Below the pieces are notes generated by a model. That model ran no database searches, was not told the origin of the DNA, and saw nothing but the letters and a program-made list of their open reading frames with translations. A program made the position numbers and the translations under genes. Below, piece by piece: positions 433-21,104 of a DNA stretch of 47,420 bases. Position 1 is the stretch's first letter. Each line of letters begins with the position of its first letter. Source of the stretch: Flavobacterium sp. Its GTDB lineage: Bacteria; Bacteroidota; Bacteroidia; Flavobacteriales; Flavobacteriaceae. The stretch spans positions 1-47,420 of the forward strand of contig JANXVF010000129.1 of NCBI GenBank assembly GCA_025351785.1. Direction: 5' to 3'.

Positions 433-464
433 TGTTTGAATTGTTAGAGAATGTCAAATGGGAT

Positions 465-604
465 AGCACACAATGTTTCGCCGCTTCTCTTCAGTTGCGA
501 AGTTCGGAACCGATTATTTTCTGTTAAAGATAAAATTTCTTGCGGAATTTAAACGTGGATTTACTATAAAACTCGCAATTGCGAGAAACGGCTGTTGTGT
601 GACG
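465..604 (-). repeat. attC-like imperfect palindrome, copy A
   Basis: On the minus strand this starts just after the stop of the upstream small gene with the end box GTCACACAAC (594-603), followed by a hairpin arm at 574-591. The opposite arm is at 481-499 and the terminal box is ATTGTGTGCTA near 464-474. The arms pair imperfectly with a few extra bases. The stretch 492-560 is nearly identical to 19172-19240 (copy C). The layout R''-L''-L'-R' is that of an integron attC site, but the boxes do not fit the strict GTTRRRY consensus. Confidence 0.6.
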
Positions 605-607
605 TAT

Positions 608-985
608 TTATTCATAAACTAAATCAAACCACGAATTTCTTTCAATTACATCAAAACCATTTTCGGCATTTCCAATAAACTCAAATTCAATATTATTCTT
701 TAATAGCGTAAACACTTTTACACTTTTTTCTATTTTTAATTCGCCACATTTTATTTCGATAGTATGATAACCTGAATTTACGTTCAACCTCGAAGATTTT
801 TGCGGAAATGCATATGAATAAACTATTTCGTTATTTTCAATTTCCTTTCCATCTAAAAATAACTCAACATTCAAAACTTTAGTTTCAATTGAGTTTTGAT
901 AAATTACATTTATCTTCTTTGGTATAAAAGCCAAAATGATAAAAAAGCAAATAATTAAAATTATGATAGTTTTCTGTTTCGTCAT
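608..985 (-). CDS. Small membrane-anchored protein of unknown function
   Basis: A 125-residue product if translation starts at the ATG at 985 (MTKQKTIIILIICFF...). The reading frame stays open to 1033, but that extension crosses a cassette end box (GTTGTGTGACATATT in minus-strand sense) and is unlikely to be coding. One N-terminal hydrophobic segment, residues ~6-22, is followed by a basic stretch and a beta-rich polar domain of ~95 residues, so it is either a type II membrane protein or has an uncleaved signal. I do not recognise the domain. Its two flanks carry matching inverted boxes (GTTGTGTGAC before the start, GTCACACAAC after the stop), as expected for a mobile gene cassette. Confidence 0.6.
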   Translation of the reverse strand: MTKQKTIIILIICFFIILAFIPKKINVIYQNSIETKVLNVELFLDGKEIENNEIVYSYAFPQKSSRLNVNSGYHTIEIKCGELKIEKSVKVFTLLKNNIEFEFIGNAENGFDVIERNSWFDLVYE

Positions 986-1220
986 TTCAAATAAAATTTT
1001 CTTCCGAAGCGCGGGTTGAAATATGTCACACAACTCATAAATATACGAATCTCCTACATTTACTTTTCAAATATATAAATTAAATCTCACAACCTTTCCT
1101 GTTTTGTCTTTCCTTTTTCCGCTACCAAAAATTGTCAAAAACATTCTTAATAACTTCTACAAAAATCACTTTAAAACAGTACCAAATTTACTACATTAGC
1201 ACAAAAGCGACAGTTTTAAA

Positions 1221-3112: not shown

Positions 3113-5821
3113 ATGAAAGACGAAGAAGAAAATTCAATTCCAGAAGACGATTTTCAGGACGAATTAAAAGAAACTAAAGACGAATCTATCGATGAAGGCT
3201 TTGACGATATTGTTTCGACTGGAGATCATTTTTACGAAAATCAGGAAGATCCAGAAGAAACCATAACCAAAGTTACAGGAATGTATAAAGACTGGTTTTT
3301 GGACTATGCTTCCTATGTAATTCTTGAACGAGCCGTACCCGCAATAGAAGATGGTTTTAAGCCCGTGCAACGTCGTATTATGCATTCTATGAAGGAATTA
3401 GATGATGGTCGCTATAATAAAGTGGCAAACATTGTAGGACATACAATGCAATATCATCCGCACGGTGATGCAAGTATTGGCGATGCCATGGTTCAAATTG
3501 GGCAAAAAGATTTAATAATTGATACGCAAGGAAACTGGGGAAATATCCTAACTGGAGATAATGCGGCAGCATCGCGATATATCGAGGCAAGAATAAGCAA
3601 ATTTGGACATGATGTGTTGTTTTCTCCAAAAATTACAGAATGGGGAGTTTCCTATGATGGTCGAAGAGCTGAACCTATAAATCTTCCTGTAAAATTTCCG
3701 CTATTATTGGCTCAAGGTGCCGAAGGAATTGCGGTAGGATTGTCGACAAAAATATTACCTCATAATTTTAATGAACTCATAGATTCATCAATAAAAATTT
3801 TAAAAGGAAAACCTTTTACATTATTTCCCGATTTTTTAACTGCAGGTATTGCAGATGTTTCAAATTATAACGACGGAGTTCGTGGAGGACGCGTGCGTGT
3901 AAGAGCAAAAATTACGCAACTCGACAAGCAAACATTAGTAATAACTCAAATTCCATTTTCTACAAATACATCAACTTTGATTGATAGTATTTTGAAAGCC
4001 AACGAAAAGGGAAAAATTAAAGTCAAAAAAATTGAAGATAATACAGCAGCCGAAGTTGAAATATTAATTCATTTATATCCTGGAGTTTCACCCGATAAAA
4101 TGATTGATGCTCTATATGCTTTTACAGCTTGCGAAAGCTCGATTGCTCCTTTAGGTTGTGTTATCGAGGATAACAAACCGCTTTTTATTGGCGTTAGCGA
4201 AATGCTAAAAATTTCGACAAATAGAACTGTTGATTTATTAAAACGAGAACTTGAAATTCAGTTGAGCGAACTTCAAAATAAATGGCATTTTTCTACTTTA
4301 GAAAAAATATTCATCCGCGAGGAAATGTATATAGACTTCAAATTATATTCTGACAGAGAAACCCTTTATGAATACTTATATAAAAAATTTGAACTTTTCA
4401 AAAAATTATTAGTTCGGGAAATAAATGATGACGACTTACAAAAGTTGACTTTAATTCCGATGATACGAATTACCCGCTTTGATTCTGATAAAGCTGATGA
4501 TGCAATTGCAAAATTAGAAGACGAAATGCTTCAAGTAAAGCATCATTTGGATAACATTATCGATTTTGCCATTGATTTTTTCCAAAAATTGAAAGATAAA
4601 TATGGAAAAGGCAGAGAACGCCAAACAGAACTAAGAAGTTTTGATACCATAGAAGCTACAAAAGTAGTATTACGAAATACAAAATTATATGTCAATATGG
4701 AAGAAGGTTTTTTAGGAACCGGACTCAAAAAAGATTTATATGTTGCAGATTGTTCTGATATTGACGATGTTATTGTTTTTTTAAGAGATGGAAAAATGAT
4801 GATTACTAAAGTAGATGAAAAAAAGTTTGTTGGTAAAGATATCATTCACATTGCCGTTTTTGATAAAAACGATAAGAGAACCATTTATAACATGATTTAT
4901 CGCGACGGAAAAAATGGCAGCACTTTTATAAAACGTTTTAATGTTTCTGGAGTAACTCGAGATAAATTTTATGACTTGACACAAGAAAAAATAGGTTCGC
5001 AAACCTTATATTTCTCGGCAAACCCAAATGGCGAAGCCGAAGTTATTACCGTTTTATTAAGACAAATAGGCAATGTAAAAAAACTAAAATGGGATTTAGA
5101 TTTTTCTGAAATTGCCATAAAAGGAAGAGCTTCGAGAGGAAACACAGTTACTAAATATCCTATTAAAAAAATAGAATTAAAAGAAAAAGGGATTTCTACT
5201 TTACGACCAAGAAAAGTTTGGTTTGATGACACAGTTCAAAAATTAAATGTAGATGGAAGAGGCGAATTACTTGGTGAGTTTCGACCAAATGATAGATTAT
5301 TAATTATCAATCAAAATGGAAAATTAAAAACTATAATCCCAGAATTGACAACTCATTTTGACGAAGACATGATTGTGTTAGAAAAATGGAATCCAAAAAA
5401 ACCAATTTCTACCTTATATTATGATGGCGAAAAAGAACGTTATTTTATCAAACGTTTTTTGGTAGAAAACGAAAACAAAGAAGAATTATTTATTACCGAG
5501 CACGAAAAATCGCAATTAGAAATTGTTTCTACCGATTGGCGACCCGTTGTAGAAATAATTTTTGCAAAAGTGAAAGGAATCCAAAAAGAAAATCAAACCA
5601 TAAGTTTGGAAGATTTTATAGCTGTAAAAGGTATCAAAGCTATTGGAAACCAACTTACATCTGACAAACTGAAACAAGTAAATTTGTTAGAGCCTTTAGT
5701 TTTTGAAGAACCCGAAGAGGTAATTCCTGAAGAACTAGAAGTTTTGATGGATGAAACTGCAAGTGATGATATTCAAACCGAACTCAACGAAGATGGACAA
5801 ATTACGCTAAGTTTAGATTAA
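3113..5821 (+). CDS. parC: DNA topoisomerase IV subunit A
   Basis: DNA breakage-reunion subunit of topoisomerase IV, 902 aa. After a ~50-residue acidic N-terminal extension the conserved domain begins with YASYVILERAVPAIEDGFKPVQRRI; the quinolone-region motif HPHGDASIGDAMV follows, and the catalytic tyrosine lies in AASRYIEAR near residue 163. A coiled-coil gate region follows (residues ~370-530) and then a C-terminal beta-propeller DNA-wrapping domain. The tail (~50 residues) is again strongly acidic and Glu-rich. It is co-oriented with parE, 35 bp apart, and very likely co-transcribed. It ends 11 bp from the stop of the convergent hydrolase gene. Confidence 0.93.
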   Translation: MKDEEENSIPEDDFQDELKETKDESIDEGFDDIVSTGDHFYENQEDPEETITKVTGMYKDWFLDYASYVILERAVPAIEDGFKPVQRRIMHSMKELDDGRYNKVANIVGHTMQYHPHGDASIGDAMVQIGQKDLIIDTQGNWGNILTGDNAAASRYIEARISKFGHDVLFSPKITEWGVSYDGRRAEPINLPVKFPLLLAQGAEGIAVGLSTKILPHNFNELIDSSIKILKGKPFTLFPDFLTAGIADVSNYNDGVRGGRVRVRAKITQLDKQTLVITQIPFSTNTSTLIDSILKANEKGKIKVKKIEDNTAAEVEILIHLYPGVSPDKMIDALYAFTACESSIAPLGCVIEDNKPLFIGVSEMLKISTNRTVDLLKRELEIQLSELQNKWHFSTLEKIFIREEMYIDFKLYSDRETLYEYLYKKFELFKKLLVREINDDDLQKLTLIPMIRITRFDSDKADDAIAKLEDEMLQVKHHLDNIIDFAIDFFQKLKDKYGKGRERQTELRSFDTIEATKVVLRNTKLYVNMEEGFLGTGLKKDLYVADCSDIDDVIVFLRDGKMMITKVDEKKFVGKDIIHIAVFDKNDKRTIYNMIYRDGKNGSTFIKRFNVSGVTRDKFYDLTQEKIGSQTLYFSANPNGEAEVITVLLRQIGNVKKLKWDLDFSEIAIKGRASRGNTVTKYPIKKIELKEKGISTLRPRKVWFDDTVQKLNVDGRGELLGEFRPNDRLLIINQNGKLKTIIPELTTHFDEDMIVLEKWNPKKPISTLYYDGEKERYFIKRFLVENENKEELFITEHEKSQLEIVSTDWRPVVEIIFAKVKGIQKENQTISLEDFIAVKGIKAIGNQLTSDKLKQVNLLEPLVFEEPEEVIPEELEVLMDETASDDIQTELNEDGQITLSLD

Positions 5822-17692: not shown

Positions 17693-18052
17693 CTAATATG
17701 TCTTTAAATCTGAAATAATTTGAGCAATTTGGACTTTTAATAATGGTATATTTGTTACTGCTGTTTCCCAAATAGTTTCTAACCTCATACTGAAATACTC
17801 GTGAGATACAAAATTTCTCATACCACGTATTTTGTGCCATTCAATAATTGGATATTTCTGTTTTGTTTCTTCTGTAATATGATTCGAAGCTTCTCCAATA
17901 ATTTCAAAATTCCGAAGCATTGCATCTTGTTCTACCCATTTACTTTTAAAAACTTCAACAGTTTTACAAAAATTTACTAAAAACTCAATTCTTTCTATAC
18001 AATCTATAATATGTCCAAGTCTGAATAAATCACTTTCTGTATTATGCTTCAT
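17693..18052 (-). CDS. hepT: HEPN-domain toxin, HepT-like (DUF86)
   Basis: 119 aa, all-helical HEPN protein. The RNase motif Rx4HxY is present as RNFVSHEY near residues 79-86, and GEASNHITEETKQKYPIIEWHKIRGMRN is the typical preceding helix pair (seen as GEASNHIT, then WHKIRGMRN). In the characterised systems the partner nucleotidyltransferase modifies the tyrosine of this motif with AMP and so neutralises the toxin. The ATG at 18052 overlaps the end of mntA by 11 bp, a translational-coupling arrangement usual for this pair. Confidence 0.9.
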   Translation of the reverse strand: MKHNTESDLFRLGHIIDCIERIEFLVNFCKTVEVFKSKWVEQDAMLRNFEIIGEASNHITEETKQKYPIIEWHKIRGMRNFVSHEYFSMRLETIWETAVTNIPLLKVQIAQIISDLKTY

Positions 18053-18329
18053 AAACTATTTTTGCATCATTTAAAATTTGTTCTTTTAATCTAGGGTGTA
18101 TAGCTGTAAATTCAACTAAATCGACTTCTTTATGTAGTTTTTCTTGCAATTCTATTTTCAAACCAGCCAAATCAAATAGGCTGTATTTTGAATCAAATGA
18201 GTACAAAATATCTATATCACTATCTTCTGTGTTTTCATCACGAGAATAAGAGCCAAAAACTCCAATCTTAGTTGGTTTAAATGGCTTTAAAGTATTGATA
18301 ATGATGTTAATTTGTTGTTCTGAAATCAT
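18042..18329 (-). CDS. mntA: Minimal nucleotidyltransferase antitoxin, MntA-like
   Basis: 95 aa. The pol-beta nucleotidyltransferase signature GVFGSYSRDENTEDSDIDIL (residues ~24-43) contains GSxxR and the paired catalytic aspartates SDIDIL; a third Asp is in KEVDLVEF. The family transfers AMP to the HepT tyrosine. First gene of the two-gene operon. It sits at the left end of the cassette island. Confidence 0.9.
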   Translation of the reverse strand: MISEQQINIIINTLKPFKPTKIGVFGSYSRDENTEDSDIDILYSFDSKYSLFDLAGLKIELQEKLHKEVDLVEFTAIHPRLKEQILNDAKIVYEA

Positions 18330-18661
18330 AATACAAATGTATAGAATTTATTATACTTAATTAACGAATTTTACTAGAAACAAGACATAAAAACTACAAC
18401 TTTTTACTGTTTAGTTTGTTTGCTTTTAGTTTCTATATGGGCACAGATTGCACCCGAGGCTTTTGCAAAACAGACGAAGTAAATCTCCGCTATCGTTTGT
18501 TTTTAAAGTATTTGCGCGCGATTGGGTTCACCGAAGTTGGAGACTAAGTTAGCCATATGTTTAGATTTAAAACCAAACTTGCAAACACAAACCAAACTTT
18601 AAATTAAAGCCCAAAACCCGCCATATTGCCAAACTGCTGTTGTGTGCTCGTGGCTATTGTC
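18330..18661. other. Gene-less region with a diverged attC-like site (copy B)
   Basis: Right after the stop of the NTF2-like gene (minus strand) comes the end box GAGCACACAAC (18639-18649) and an arm GCAGTTTGGCAATATGGCGG (18618-18637). A weakly matching opposite arm lies near 18465-18480, and GGTGCAATCTGTGCCC ends the unit near 18437-18455. It is GC-richer than its surroundings and has no ORF. Box order matches copies A and D; the sequence is otherwise different. Confidence 0.45.
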
Positions 18662-19105
18662 TCACTTTATAGGTTTTGTTGTCATACGTTTAATATGCCA
18701 ACCTTGTTTGCCTAGCCACACCCATTGTACTTCATATTCGCCTTTCACTATTATAGTATCTTTCTCTGATAGTACGTCTGTTTGGATATAATTTCCTTTT
18801 TGAATGGCACCGTCCCGAGAGAGTTCAATGGACTTAGTTTTTGAAATTTGGGACAAAACTTGAATATGCTTAAAAGAAGATAAAAATTTCCTTATAGAAT
18901 CTCTCCCAATCGCAATGTCGCCCATATTTCCGTCAGCAGAGTATAGTTGTGAAATAGAATCAGCGTCTAATTTTTGAATTAAATGGTCATAATATTTCAT
19001 TGCCGACTCAACACCTAATTTGTCGTGTTTTAAAGTATTACAAGAAACTTGAAGAAAAATGAATATTAAAAAAACCGAAATGAAGAGTTTTGAGTTAGGG
19101 AGCAT
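18662..19105 (-). CDS. NTF2-like (DUF4440-type) lipoprotein
   Basis: 147 aa. The signal peptide ends in FLQVSCNTL, a type II lipobox with Cys at ~22, so this is a periplasm-facing lipoprotein. The rest resembles NTF2/SnoaL-type small domains: ESAMKYYDHLIQKLDADSIS (helix 1), LYSADGNMGDIAIGRDSIRKFL, and the closing beta strands EVQWVWLGKQGWHIKRMTT. No catalytic role can be assigned. It is one gene of the cassette series and is followed by attC-like copy B; its upstream boundary box is lost in the hybrid copy C. Confidence 0.75.
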   Translation of the reverse strand: MLPNSKLFISVFLIFIFLQVSCNTLKHDKLGVESAMKYYDHLIQKLDADSISQLYSADGNMGDIAIGRDSIRKFLSSFKHIQVLSQISKTKSIELSRDGAIQKGNYIQTDVLSEKDTIIVKGEYEVQWVWLGKQGWHIKRMTTKPIK

Positions 19106-19130
19106 ATAAAATTGAAGTTTAGGATTTAAG

Positions 19131-19281
19131 CTATACCGCTGTGGCGCAAAACATTTTGTTGTTTCTCGTTAGTTGCGAACTTCGGAACTGATTATTTTCT
19201 GTTAAAGATAAAATTTCTTGAGGAAAATAAACGTGAATTTTGCACTATTTTCGCCATTTCTTGAAACCGCTGTTGGCAGAC
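19131..19281 (-). repeat. attC-like site, copy C (hybrid or degenerate)
   Basis: On the minus strand the box GTCTGCCAAC (19272-19281) follows the upstream gene's stop, then the arm GGTTTCAAGAAATGGCGAA (19250-19268), identical to that of copy D. The far half instead matches copy A: ~69 bp at 19172-19240 differ from 492-560 at only about seven positions. The far arm does not pair well with the near arm and the terminal box is degraded, so this copy seems to be a recombinant of two site types. Confidence 0.6.
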
Positions 19282-19289
19282 GTATTTAC

Positions 19290-20045
19290 TCAATATTGTA
19301 TTTCCTTTAGCTTAGTACTATCGTTAGCAATCCAAATATTGTTTTTAAATTGATATTCAACATCAAACTTTTCCAGCTTTTTAAATTTCTTTGAGTTTTC
19401 TGGTACTCCTCTTTTATATTCATAATGAAAAACTATAGAATTAGGCATAATTTCATACTTTGAGTCTAAAATACAAGCCAATATTTTTTTATTATAAGTT
19501 TCACACATTCCATTGAATAAACTTTTAATTATAGGATTCAATTTATCTTGTGGAATAATTTCTTTAAAAAAATACAATTCAGTTGCGCAAAATGCAGAAC
19601 CAGTCCCACAAGATTTTAAATAAAAATAATTTTTGCATTTTCCAAATCCGTCAAATTTATTTCCTCAACAACAAAGATAAAAGCCATTTACATATCTTTC
19701 ACTTTTTATAATATTTCCAATAGAATCTACTTCTAAAACAAATTGTGATGGTGCTGTTTTTGTGTTAACAATATCCTTCAGAAACAAAAAATAATTTTTA
19801 CTATTCTCCTTTTTATAAAATTTACCAATCGTGTCATTTTCATTTAGTTTTTTATAACTAAAATCAATAGTATCATTTTTGTTTAAATCCAAAAGGATTT
19901 TTTCACAATTCTTTATTGAAACATAACCAGAATCATTTACAAAAATATTTTCCTTGTAATACTTTCTATTTCTTTGATGCAACTGATTAGACAAAAAAAG
20001 AATTATCAAAAAAAAGAATAGTGTTGTTTGCGCATTTTTTTTCAT
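19290..20045 (-). pseudogene. Envelope protein gene interrupted by an in-frame TGA
   Basis: Two ORFs here are one gene. From the ATG at 20045 (MKKNAQTTLFFFLIILFLSN, signal or anchor) the frame runs to ...NGFYLCC and a TGA at 19665-19667, then continues in the same frame without any stop as GNKFDGFGKCKNYFYLKSCG ... to the TAA at 19290. The whole would be about 251 codons before the final stop. The downstream part has no ATG near its start, only TTG at 19577, so it is not a separate gene. The simplest reading is a Trp codon TGG changed to TGA (CCWGNK). The product family is unknown. End boxes GTTGGCAGAC before the start and GTCTGCCAAC after the stop mark it as one cassette. Confidence 0.75.
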
Positions 20046-20050
20046 AATAT

Positions 20051-20184
20051 GTCTGCCAACGTCTCGTGGCTTCAAGAAGTGGCGAACTTCGTAACCGCGT
20101 TCTTTCTGCTAAGATACTATTTCTTGCGAAAGACAGACGTCAATTTTGCAATTTTTCGCCATTTCTTGAAACCGCTGTTAGCAG
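20051..20184 (-). repeat. attC-like site, copy D (best preserved)
   Basis: In minus-strand order: R''-like CTGCTAAC (20177-20184), L''-like GGTTTCAAGAAATGGCGAA (20155-20173), a ~68-nt variable centre, L'-like TTCGCCACTTCTTGAAGCC (20068-20086) and R'-like GTTGGCAGAC (20051-20060). The two 19-nt arms pair at all positions if G-T wobbles are allowed (two of 19). Extra unpaired bases between arm and box differ on the two sides, as in folded attC sites. R'' matches the preceding cassette and R' the following one. Confidence 0.65.
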
Positions 20185-20189
20185 TAGTG

Positions 20190-20663
20190 TTATTGATTTA
20201 TTTGTTCAAGTTTAGCAATAAATTTTACAATTTTTTCCACTTTCTGATTTTCATTAGCGGATGAATTTATGTTCTGAATTATTTCATTTTGTTCCTCAAT
20301 TTTAAGTTTATAGAATATATTTAGAACTTCTGCATCTTTGAAACATTCAAAAATCATTTCATTTTCGTTATTTTTTTCTTTGTTTTGATTTTCAAGATAA
20401 AGTGTAACATTGACTAAATCTCCAGCGCCTTTTCCAATAGAATTTCTAATTTCAGAGTTTAGCGCCATCTTTTTGTCTGCGTTTTTCATTGGTCCTAAAT
20501 TCTTATTTTTGATTTCAAAGTTGTCAATTTTACCTGATACTTTTAAACCGCCCCATTTTCCCTTTATGTTTTTTGTATTTGGTATAATAAGTTGATAAGT
20601 CCAAGCACCGTTTCCTAAAATATATTGAATTTCTAATTTTTCATTTTCTACTATAAAATTCAT
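20190..20663 (-). CDS. DUF1905 domain protein
   Basis: 157 aa from the ATG at 20663 (MNFIVENEKLEIQYIL); the frame is open to 20699 but that part crosses the cassette end box GTTAGCAGTAATG and is not likely coding. The first ~95 residues match DUF1905 (TYQLIIPN..., KGKWGGLKVSGKID, then EIRNSIGKGAGDLVNVTLYLE), a small beta-barrel often fused to a YdeI/OmpD-associated helical region, which the C-terminal ~50 residues may be. Function unknown. It is the first cassette of the series, bounded by GTTAGCAG and CTGCTAAC. Confidence 0.7.
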   Translation of the reverse strand: MNFIVENEKLEIQYILGNGAWTYQLIIPNTKNIKGKWGGLKVSGKIDNFEIKNKNLGPMKNADKKMALNSEIRNSIGKGAGDLVNVTLYLENQNKEKNNENEMIFECFKDAEVLNIFYKLKIEEQNEIIQNINSSANENQKVEKIVKFIAKLEQINQ

Positions 20664-20987
20664 AGTTTTCGTTTCATTTTTGCGGTTCGGCAGAAACATT
20701 ACTGCTAACTAGCAAATCTACACAATTAGGGGTTATAAAATCCAATCTTGAGGTTCTATAGTCCAGCTTTGGGGTCTGATACTGATGTATTGGGCTACTG
20801 AACGAAACTTTTGTATTATGAAAACATTTTTAAAATTTTTTACAATTGATTTTAATCTTTTGTTGGCTCACTGTTTATGTTTGTTTTGCAAATTTACATT
20901 ATGCAATATTGGTAAGGACTAGTAGTTTGCAGTAGCCTTTAAACTTATTTCTGCTTATGATAGTTGCAAGTATTTAGATTGAAATAC
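20664..20987. other. Gene-less region at the head of the cassette array
   Basis: The cassette boundary GTTAGCAGTAATG (minus sense) lies at 20698-20710. Upstream of it there is about 275 bp with no ORF and no clear promoter. This is the position where an attI-like site or a cassette promoter would be expected, but I cannot show either. Confidence 0.4.
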
Positions 20988-21104
20988 AAAAAAACTCCAA
21001 CATTTCTGTTGAAGTTTTTGTGGGCGATTGCCTGTTCCGATGCAATCGGAAAGGGGTTCAAACCCCCGACCCTCCCGATAAAAAATCGGGATGTTCTGAA
21101 ACAA
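20988..21104 (-). pseudogene. Degenerate tRNA-Val remnant with terminator copy
   Basis: The terminator hairpin AACTCCAACA...TGTTGAAGTT (20993-21016) and the tRNA 3' end TGGGCGATT are repeated almost exactly from the intact tRNA-Val locus (21382-21416). The T-arm is kept (GGGGTTCAAACCCC), but a 7-bp-stem palindrome (TTCCGAT gca ATCGGAA, 21035-21051) is inserted between acceptor and T-arm, the anticodon arm is replaced by another (TCCCGAT aaaaa ATCGGGA, 21073-21091), and the 5' half is missing. It cannot be a functional tRNA. Confidence 0.7.

Follow-up and report, generated by a model that had tools for sequence, protein, structure and literature searches.

The Flavobacterium sp. contig JANXVF010000129.1 (assembly GCA_025351785.1) raises the question of how short genes and imperfect palindromes came to alternate on one strand, and what placed them there. 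The window, which is the whole analysed stretch of 47,420 nucleotides (nt), carries this alternation on the minus strand from 20.7 down to 18.5 kb, where it forms an array of three attC-like sites (18.5-20.7 kb). Comparative sequence analysis indicates that the locus is very probably an integrase-less cassette array of a Bacteroidota class of integrons, likely inserted and reshuffled by a tyrosine recombinase related to IntI whose gene lies elsewhere in the genome. The preliminary description had read it as an integron-like array with attC-like folded sites and boxes paired by cassette. Box, chain, junction and covariation comparisons support that reading, and the boxes and repeats lie where they had been placed. 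The system is larger than first described and includes, within the window, a solo cassette that the preliminary description had not mentioned. The parts, all on the minus strand, are as follows.

20710-20722, minus strand: putative attI-like insertion point before cassette 1, ending in TAGATTTGCTA; its likeness to the point after the genome's own recombinase gene (ending in GATATTTACTA, then GTT) is suggestive only.
20693-20709, minus strand: front box (R'-type) of cassette 1, GTTAGCAGTAATGTTTC; the same 17 letters start the cassette copy in the relative G045.
20190-20699, minus strand: cassette 1 gene, DUF1905 protein (Pfam PF08922, 6.9e-09); an 89% identical protein lies in the G045 array.
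20048-20189, minus strand: attC-like site D (110.8 bits), including the cassette 1 back box (20189-20177) and the start of the cassette 2 front box (GTT at 20060).
19665-20060, minus strand: cassette 2, comprising its front box GTTGGCAGACATATT (20060-20046) and the initial portion of a broken gene, no Pfam match.
19290-19577, minus strand: second part of the broken cassette 2 gene, no Pfam match.
19141-19289, minus strand: attC-like site C (74.6 bits), with the cassette 2 back box at 19289-19275 and a decayed far box.
18662-19105, minus strand: cassette 3 gene, lipoprotein with a weak SnoaL-like match (E 0.0014, under the Pfam cut-off).
18511-18652, minus strand: attC-like site A (46.9 bits), 3' half decayed.
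463-1034, minus strand: solo cassette, with front box GTTGTGTGACATAT at 1034 preceded by ATATTTATGA, an open reading frame at 1033-608 and a site at 605-463 (96.6 bits).

The first evidence comes from the boxes at the cassette ends. In the window, the front box of the DUF1905 cassette is GTTAGCAGTAATG from 20709 and its back box is CACTACTGCTAAC from 20189, and the broken-gene cassette has GTTGGCAGACATATT from 20060 and AATACGTCTGCCAAC ending near 19275. Box pairing was compared over 131 neighbouring site pairs by matching the front box of each cassette to the reverse complement of its back box, with AAC and GTT as the only anchors. Box positions 4-9 were fully matched in 100 of 131 same-cassette comparisons, in 6 of 146 same-site comparisons and in a mean of 3.9 of 131 over 2000 shuffles. 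The mean number of matching positions, out of six, was 5.34 within cassettes, against 2.84 within sites and 2.74 after shuffling (highest shuffle 3.08). Among distinct same-cassette box pairs, 73 of 103 were fully matched. Because same-cassette matching is far above same-site matching, the boxes belong to cassettes and not to sites, which is expected if each cassette was once circular. The match extends to about position 15, position 11 excepted. This position is A in 130 of the 131 front boxes and in three back boxes. Opposite the front-box A there is mostly C or G. On the top strand this is a mismatch, on the bottom strand usually a T.G pair; the A is possibly a strand mark.

The boxes are otherwise diverse. 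There are 91 distinct 12-nt front boxes among the 131, and position 6 is C in 74 of them. As had been noted, the boxes of the window (GTTAGCA and GTTGGCA) fall outside the strict GTTRRRY consensus of the R box, and the 131 front boxes as a set do not follow it either. It is plausible that standard attC models miss such sites. In the 110 cassettes with at least five of six box matches (median 706.5 nt), the longest open reading frame was sense in 100 and antisense in 3, and 7 had none of 50 codons.

The sites are numerous in the genome of the window. A blastn search with copy D returned 43 matches there (E<=10). Covariance model R1 gave 51 at E<=0.01, spread over 19 of the 176 contigs; 49 of them reach E<=4e-6, and one of the remaining two is a listed site read in reverse. 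With so many matches from both searches, chance is excluded. The copies are palindromic and spread over many contigs, which would also be seen with an ordinary dispersed palindromic repeat (of the repetitive extragenic palindromic or miniature inverted-repeat transposable element type) lying between genes by chance. Such a repeat would not explain boxes that match across the gene instead of across the repeat, nor one-stranded arrays, sense genes and linkage to one recombinase family. The box test refutes it (100/131 same-cassette vs 6/146 same-site), and it is regarded as extremely improbable.

The structure of the sites was then considered. In 50 diverse aligned sites, 18 arm pairs were standard in 89.6% of cells compared with 62.8% after shuffling, and 17 of the 18 showed changes on both sides. 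The covariation score of the arms was 0.624, against 0.150 for shuffled and 0.048-0.137 for slid arms, the structure having been derived from this very alignment. The 50 sites, which had been picked by the motifs AACA and CGTT, show no variation in either motif, and they are bounded by AAC and GTT. In copy D, the arms at 20155-20173 and 20068-20086 are complementary, as first described, but of the two wobbles ascribed to them only one is a wobble (G.T); the other is an A.C mismatch, whichever strand is read.

Folding was predicted for 97 cassettes with perfect boxes, with each cassette's own ends rejoined. The bottom strand was predicted to be more stable than the top in 92 of these 97 selected sites (mean -32.2 vs -28.2 kcal/mol). 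Box position 11 was unpaired in every top-strand fold and formed a pair in 74% of the bottom-strand folds. The spacer forms a one-sided 4-nt bulge in 88 of the 97 predicted stems, and 1x1 mismatches are also present in 88. The comparison of extrahelical bases with attC proposed at the outset gave a different picture from canonical sites. Conserved extrahelical bases were not found in the 97 predicted stems; 68 had no single-base bulge within the first 24 pairs and 29 had one or more, with a single candidate site as the canonical attC control. A known RNA family was also considered as the identity of the sites and rejected, as the Rfam scan of 17.5-22.0 kb gave only a tRNA and four sub-threshold matches.

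The junctions between cassettes show that neighbours change at CGTT. Of 426 profile matches, 388 had CGTT where expected and enough sequence to either side, and these formed the junction set. In 234 site pairs the upstream 120 nt were common (>=95%) and the downstream parts differed; identity was 1.00 through GTT and dropped at the next base. In 19 further site pairs the downstream cassette was common (>=90%) and the upstream site differed, and identity was 0.95-1.00 from CGTT on and lower before it. The 19 pairs are the cleaner evidence, because some of the 234 represent shared site types in different cassettes. By analogy with integrons, the bond exchanged would be G^TT.

A change of neighbours between species is illustrated by the DUF1905 cassette, whose close relative lies inside the recombinase-linked array of G045 with the same boxes and different neighbours. 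The repeats therefore do not always stay with the same neighbouring genes, which had been named as an outcome that would contradict an array of mobile cassettes. The other such outcome, homologous loci without the paired boxes, is not seen in this comparison either. In the comparison of this cassette (window 20693-20048) with locus L270 (G045:C1:230722-231201), the boxes are identical and the site stem is different. The differing stem would be unexpected from recombination at R' alone, and stems may be exchangeable. In locus L073 (G000:C33), two sites at 4071-4143 and 4969-5044 have the left half only, followed by TTTATGA and then GTT. They look as if a cassette had been inserted at an attI-like motif within the loop of another site.

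A linked tyrosine recombinase had been suggested as something to look for, and a PF00589 search of 13 genomes identified one recombinase family at the array heads in relatives. Its members are 350-370 or about 580-590 amino acids long and consist of PF13495, PF00589 and an N-terminal extension. The extension is predicted to fold as a single small beta/alpha unit in the short form, whereas the long form, of which L087 is an example, is predicted to have three copies of this unit (predicted template modelling score, pTM, 0.46 and 0.34). The only match for this part was a weak one to DUF5710 in short-form homologues. The closest PDB match is IntI4 of Vibrio, both by sequence (1.9e-40) and by Foldseek rank (TM 0.42). 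On the integron integrase model TIGR02249 (cut-off 265), all nine members tested scored 200-217 bits and four further members from other Bacteroidota 193-217 bits, compared with 450-488 for four canonical IntI. Alignment of four family members with four canonical IntI showed 27 + 14 = 41 residues of the additional-domain region to be absent from the family. Canonical IntI formed a 100/100 clade, and so did Xer, in a tree reduced from 92 to 68 rows; the array-linked recombinases fell in neither clade, the joining point of IntI relative to the insert-less family being left undecided by the tree.

The cassettes could instead be moved by a canonical IntI or by the host XerC/XerD, with the linked recombinase as a bystander, and Xer-like proteins are indeed present in the sampled genomes. 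This is very unlikely, because the recombinase heads the array in most loci and has an attI-like point past its end, all nine members stay under the TIGR02249 cut-off, and the Xer rows form a separate clade. The claim that the locus has no integrase holds for the contig of the window and fails for the genome. On contig C48 the same genome has an open 581-codon gene for a member of the array-linked recombinase family, with an attI-like point after it.

Linkage was assessed in 40 fetched recombinase loci, 24 from single-contig genomes and 16 from others. At least two sites lay downstream on the same strand in 27 of the 40, the first at a distance of 412-2372 nt, and a divergent upstream array was present in three. 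In L097, L098 and L114, from three Flavobacterium-genus genomes, the array diverges from the recombinase, which is the classical arrangement. A single family thus includes both layouts. A consensus-free detector that chains box pairs was also applied, with three base shuffles per downstream flank as the control. Chains reached 19 cassettes, against at most three in the shuffles. Chains of at least four were found in 22 of the 40 recombinase loci and in 7 of 80 named loci, which are the best 80 of 592 matching stretches; F. enshiense/G265 is counted in both sets. Outside Flavobacterium, chains of at least four occurred in Rufibacter, Winogradskyella, Algibacter, Flavobacteriaceae S0862, a Sphingobacteriales metagenome-assembled genome and a Bacteroidetes metagenome-assembled genome.

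The chain starts identify a candidate attI-like point beside the recombinase gene. In 13 of the 40 loci the chain starts close to the end of the protein match, at 53-57 nt in five long-form loci and at 95-107 nt in eight short-form ones. A lead, for example ATATTTACTA, precedes the GTT there. In the remaining loci the longest exact chain starts further in, or there is no chain. The same lead lies 45 nt past the recombinase stop on C48, where the contig ends 222 nt after the gene, so that the putative point is present in the 13 loci and in the own genome. Three array starts of this genome have comparable leads before GTT, namely TAGATTTGCTA at cassette 1, ATATTTATGA at the solo cassette and TATTGGTA on contig C55. 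These three cases only suggest insertion at attI-like chromosomal points by a recombinase acting from elsewhere.

The distribution of the sites was examined in the genus and beyond. With copy D, blastn was positive in 30 of 100 genomes (own genome counted), every one within the genus, and in 0 of 39 genomes from other genera of the order. Model R1, with at most 10 candidates scored per genome, gave at least one match at E<=1e-4 in 263 of 299 Flavobacterium-genus genomes. The own genome has about 49 such sites. Arrays of relatives are long and one-stranded; the profile matched 34 times within 72 kb of G045 and 20 times within 22 kb of G011. In genomes G001-G060, where a clear family member was defined by E<1e-40 and site counts ran up to 10, at least eight R1 matches were present in 22 of 31 genomes with a clear member and in 11 of 29 without (Fisher p 0.019, a test that ignores relatedness). 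Among the 299 genus genomes, 19 encode a DUF1905 protein at E<=1e-15. Viral contigs, searched for phage carriage with one exact pattern, gave no match.

In the comparative tests applied, the system behaves in an integron-like manner. By this reading, a cassette would excise as a circle, its site would fold on the bottom strand, and the recombinase would join it at G^TT, as in integrons, to attI or an attI-like chromosomal point. The window array is probably fed in trans. The copy in the window may itself still be mobile, through a recombinase that would act in trans on circles with a preferred strand. Since the recombinase has no additional domain and most predicted stems have no single extrahelical bases, recognition would have to use other features, namely the long paired box, the four-base bulge on one side and the fixed mismatches.

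Several observations weigh against this interpretation. Linkage by genome is only moderate, because many genomes without a clear family member still carry sites, including the 11 of 29 with at least eight. Of the 40 loci, four have only one downstream site, 1.7-8.1 kb away, and six have no site in the fetched flank, two of these with less than 200 nt of contig left. Four or fewer of the six box positions matched in 21 of the 131 cassettes, for which missed intervening sites and wrong anchors are the likely reasons. As CGTT is invariant by selection in the compared sites, the identity break is placed at CGTT and not at one bond. An empty site for comparison was not obtained from 15 same-genus folC loci (31 genomes with a folC match), in which only folC and one GIY-YIG gene of the window neighbourhood were found. 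The confidence of the structure models is modest at pTM 0.46 and 0.34. Three members (L082 with 230.7, L143 with 243.5 and L151 with 220.2 bits) pass the cut-off (220) of NF040815; this model carries the name XerA_Arch, and its description reads site-specific recombinase/integron integrase. The contig of the window has no PF00589 match at E<=1e-5. Finally, the cassette 2 gene is broken and the boxes of cassette 3 are decayed, so the window copy may be inert.

This last point leads to the possibility that the window array is a dead relic, made of old insertions on which the recombinase of the genome no longer acts. Besides the broken gene and the decayed boxes, copy A has lost its far half and the GTT of the solo site is damaged. 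Against a relic, site D is intact, as are the two boxes of cassette 1 and those of cassette 2, and the genome has an open recombinase gene with an attI-like point and many further sites. A relic is a serious possibility, although the chances are somewhat below even.

The integron reading can be set beside known systems. Integrons, including sedentary chromosomal ones such as that of Vibrio, share with the present system arrays on one strand, made up of short cassettes that mostly hold a single gene, and boxes paired by cassette. In both, the sites end in AAC and GTT and the junctions lie at GTT. Further common features are a better predicted fold of the bottom strand, an attI-like point beside the recombinase gene and a recombinase closest to IntI4. 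In contrast, the present recombinase has none of the 41 additional-domain residues and carries one or three extra N-terminal beta/alpha units (predicted). The present boxes are not GTTRRRY and pair over about 15 nt, and the sites have the one-sided 4-nt bulge and 1x1 mismatches, with 68 of 97 stems free of single-base bulges. In canonical attC, AAC and GTT alone are conserved and conserved extrahelical bases are bound by the integrase; attC x attC recombination failed without them, according to PMC2727003. Canonical box pairing can reach 9-11 nt in the same source, so that the long present boxes differ from it in degree. The window resembles a cluster of attC sites lacking integron-integrases (CALIN) in that its three array sites fall within some 1.7 kb and its contig has no recombinase. 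It is unlike a CALIN in that its sites are not canonical attC and its likely integrase is insert-less and lies on another contig. Treponema-type integrons are also similar, with co-directional integrase and cassettes and attI past the integrase (PMC3607928). However, their integrases are described there as intI, whereas the present family has no additional domain and is divergent from its array in 3 of 40 loci.

An "integron-like" subgroup of simple tyrosine recombinases, in which the integrase insertion is not fully conserved yet essential for function, is described in PMC8138268. Insert-less recombinases at the head of cassette arrays are not predicted by that statement. The present system lies outside the current integron definition, because its integrase has no additional domain, its boxes are not GTTRRRY and most predicted stems have no extrahelical bases. 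It probably represents a separate, widespread Bacteroidota class of integrons, in which the integrase would capture folded cassettes without an additional domain, at sites without integrase-bound extrahelical bases. This class is maybe ancestral to or parallel with canonical integrons and would have been overlooked by domain-defined surveys. According to PMC2426708 and PMC9668308, surveys detect integrases through the additional domain of IntI. Bacteroidota are listed among integron-bearing phyla in PMC8618304 and PMC9668308, and PMC9024848, on IntegronFinder 2.0, gives one complete Bacteroidetes integron, in Salinibacter ruber, with In0 only before. A full-text literature search, covering titles and abstract openings with preprints and most subscription papers outside its scope, gave no description of Flavobacterium integrons or of an insert-less integron integrase among the matches listed.

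Integron surveys would probably miss such a cassette system, which is also present elsewhere in the phylum. If active, it would be a large reservoir of mobile cassette genes that has apparently gone unrecorded, in a phylum common in the environment. Because the additional domain and the extrahelical bases appear to be absent together, it also offers a natural test of whether both are needed in folded-site recombination.

The gene contents and surroundings of the array agree with the initial account, which named a DUF1905 gene, a lipoprotein gene, a broken gene and a nearby toxin-antitoxin system; the broken gene has no Pfam match. The toxin-antitoxin pair is of the HepT/MntA type and, at 17693-18329 of the window, directly adjoins the array. 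On the other side, window positions 20979-21084 hold a partial, diverged copy of part of the tRNA-Val gene together with its flank. The intact gene is some 0.37-0.39 kb away, and a GIY-YIG gene adjoins the copy.

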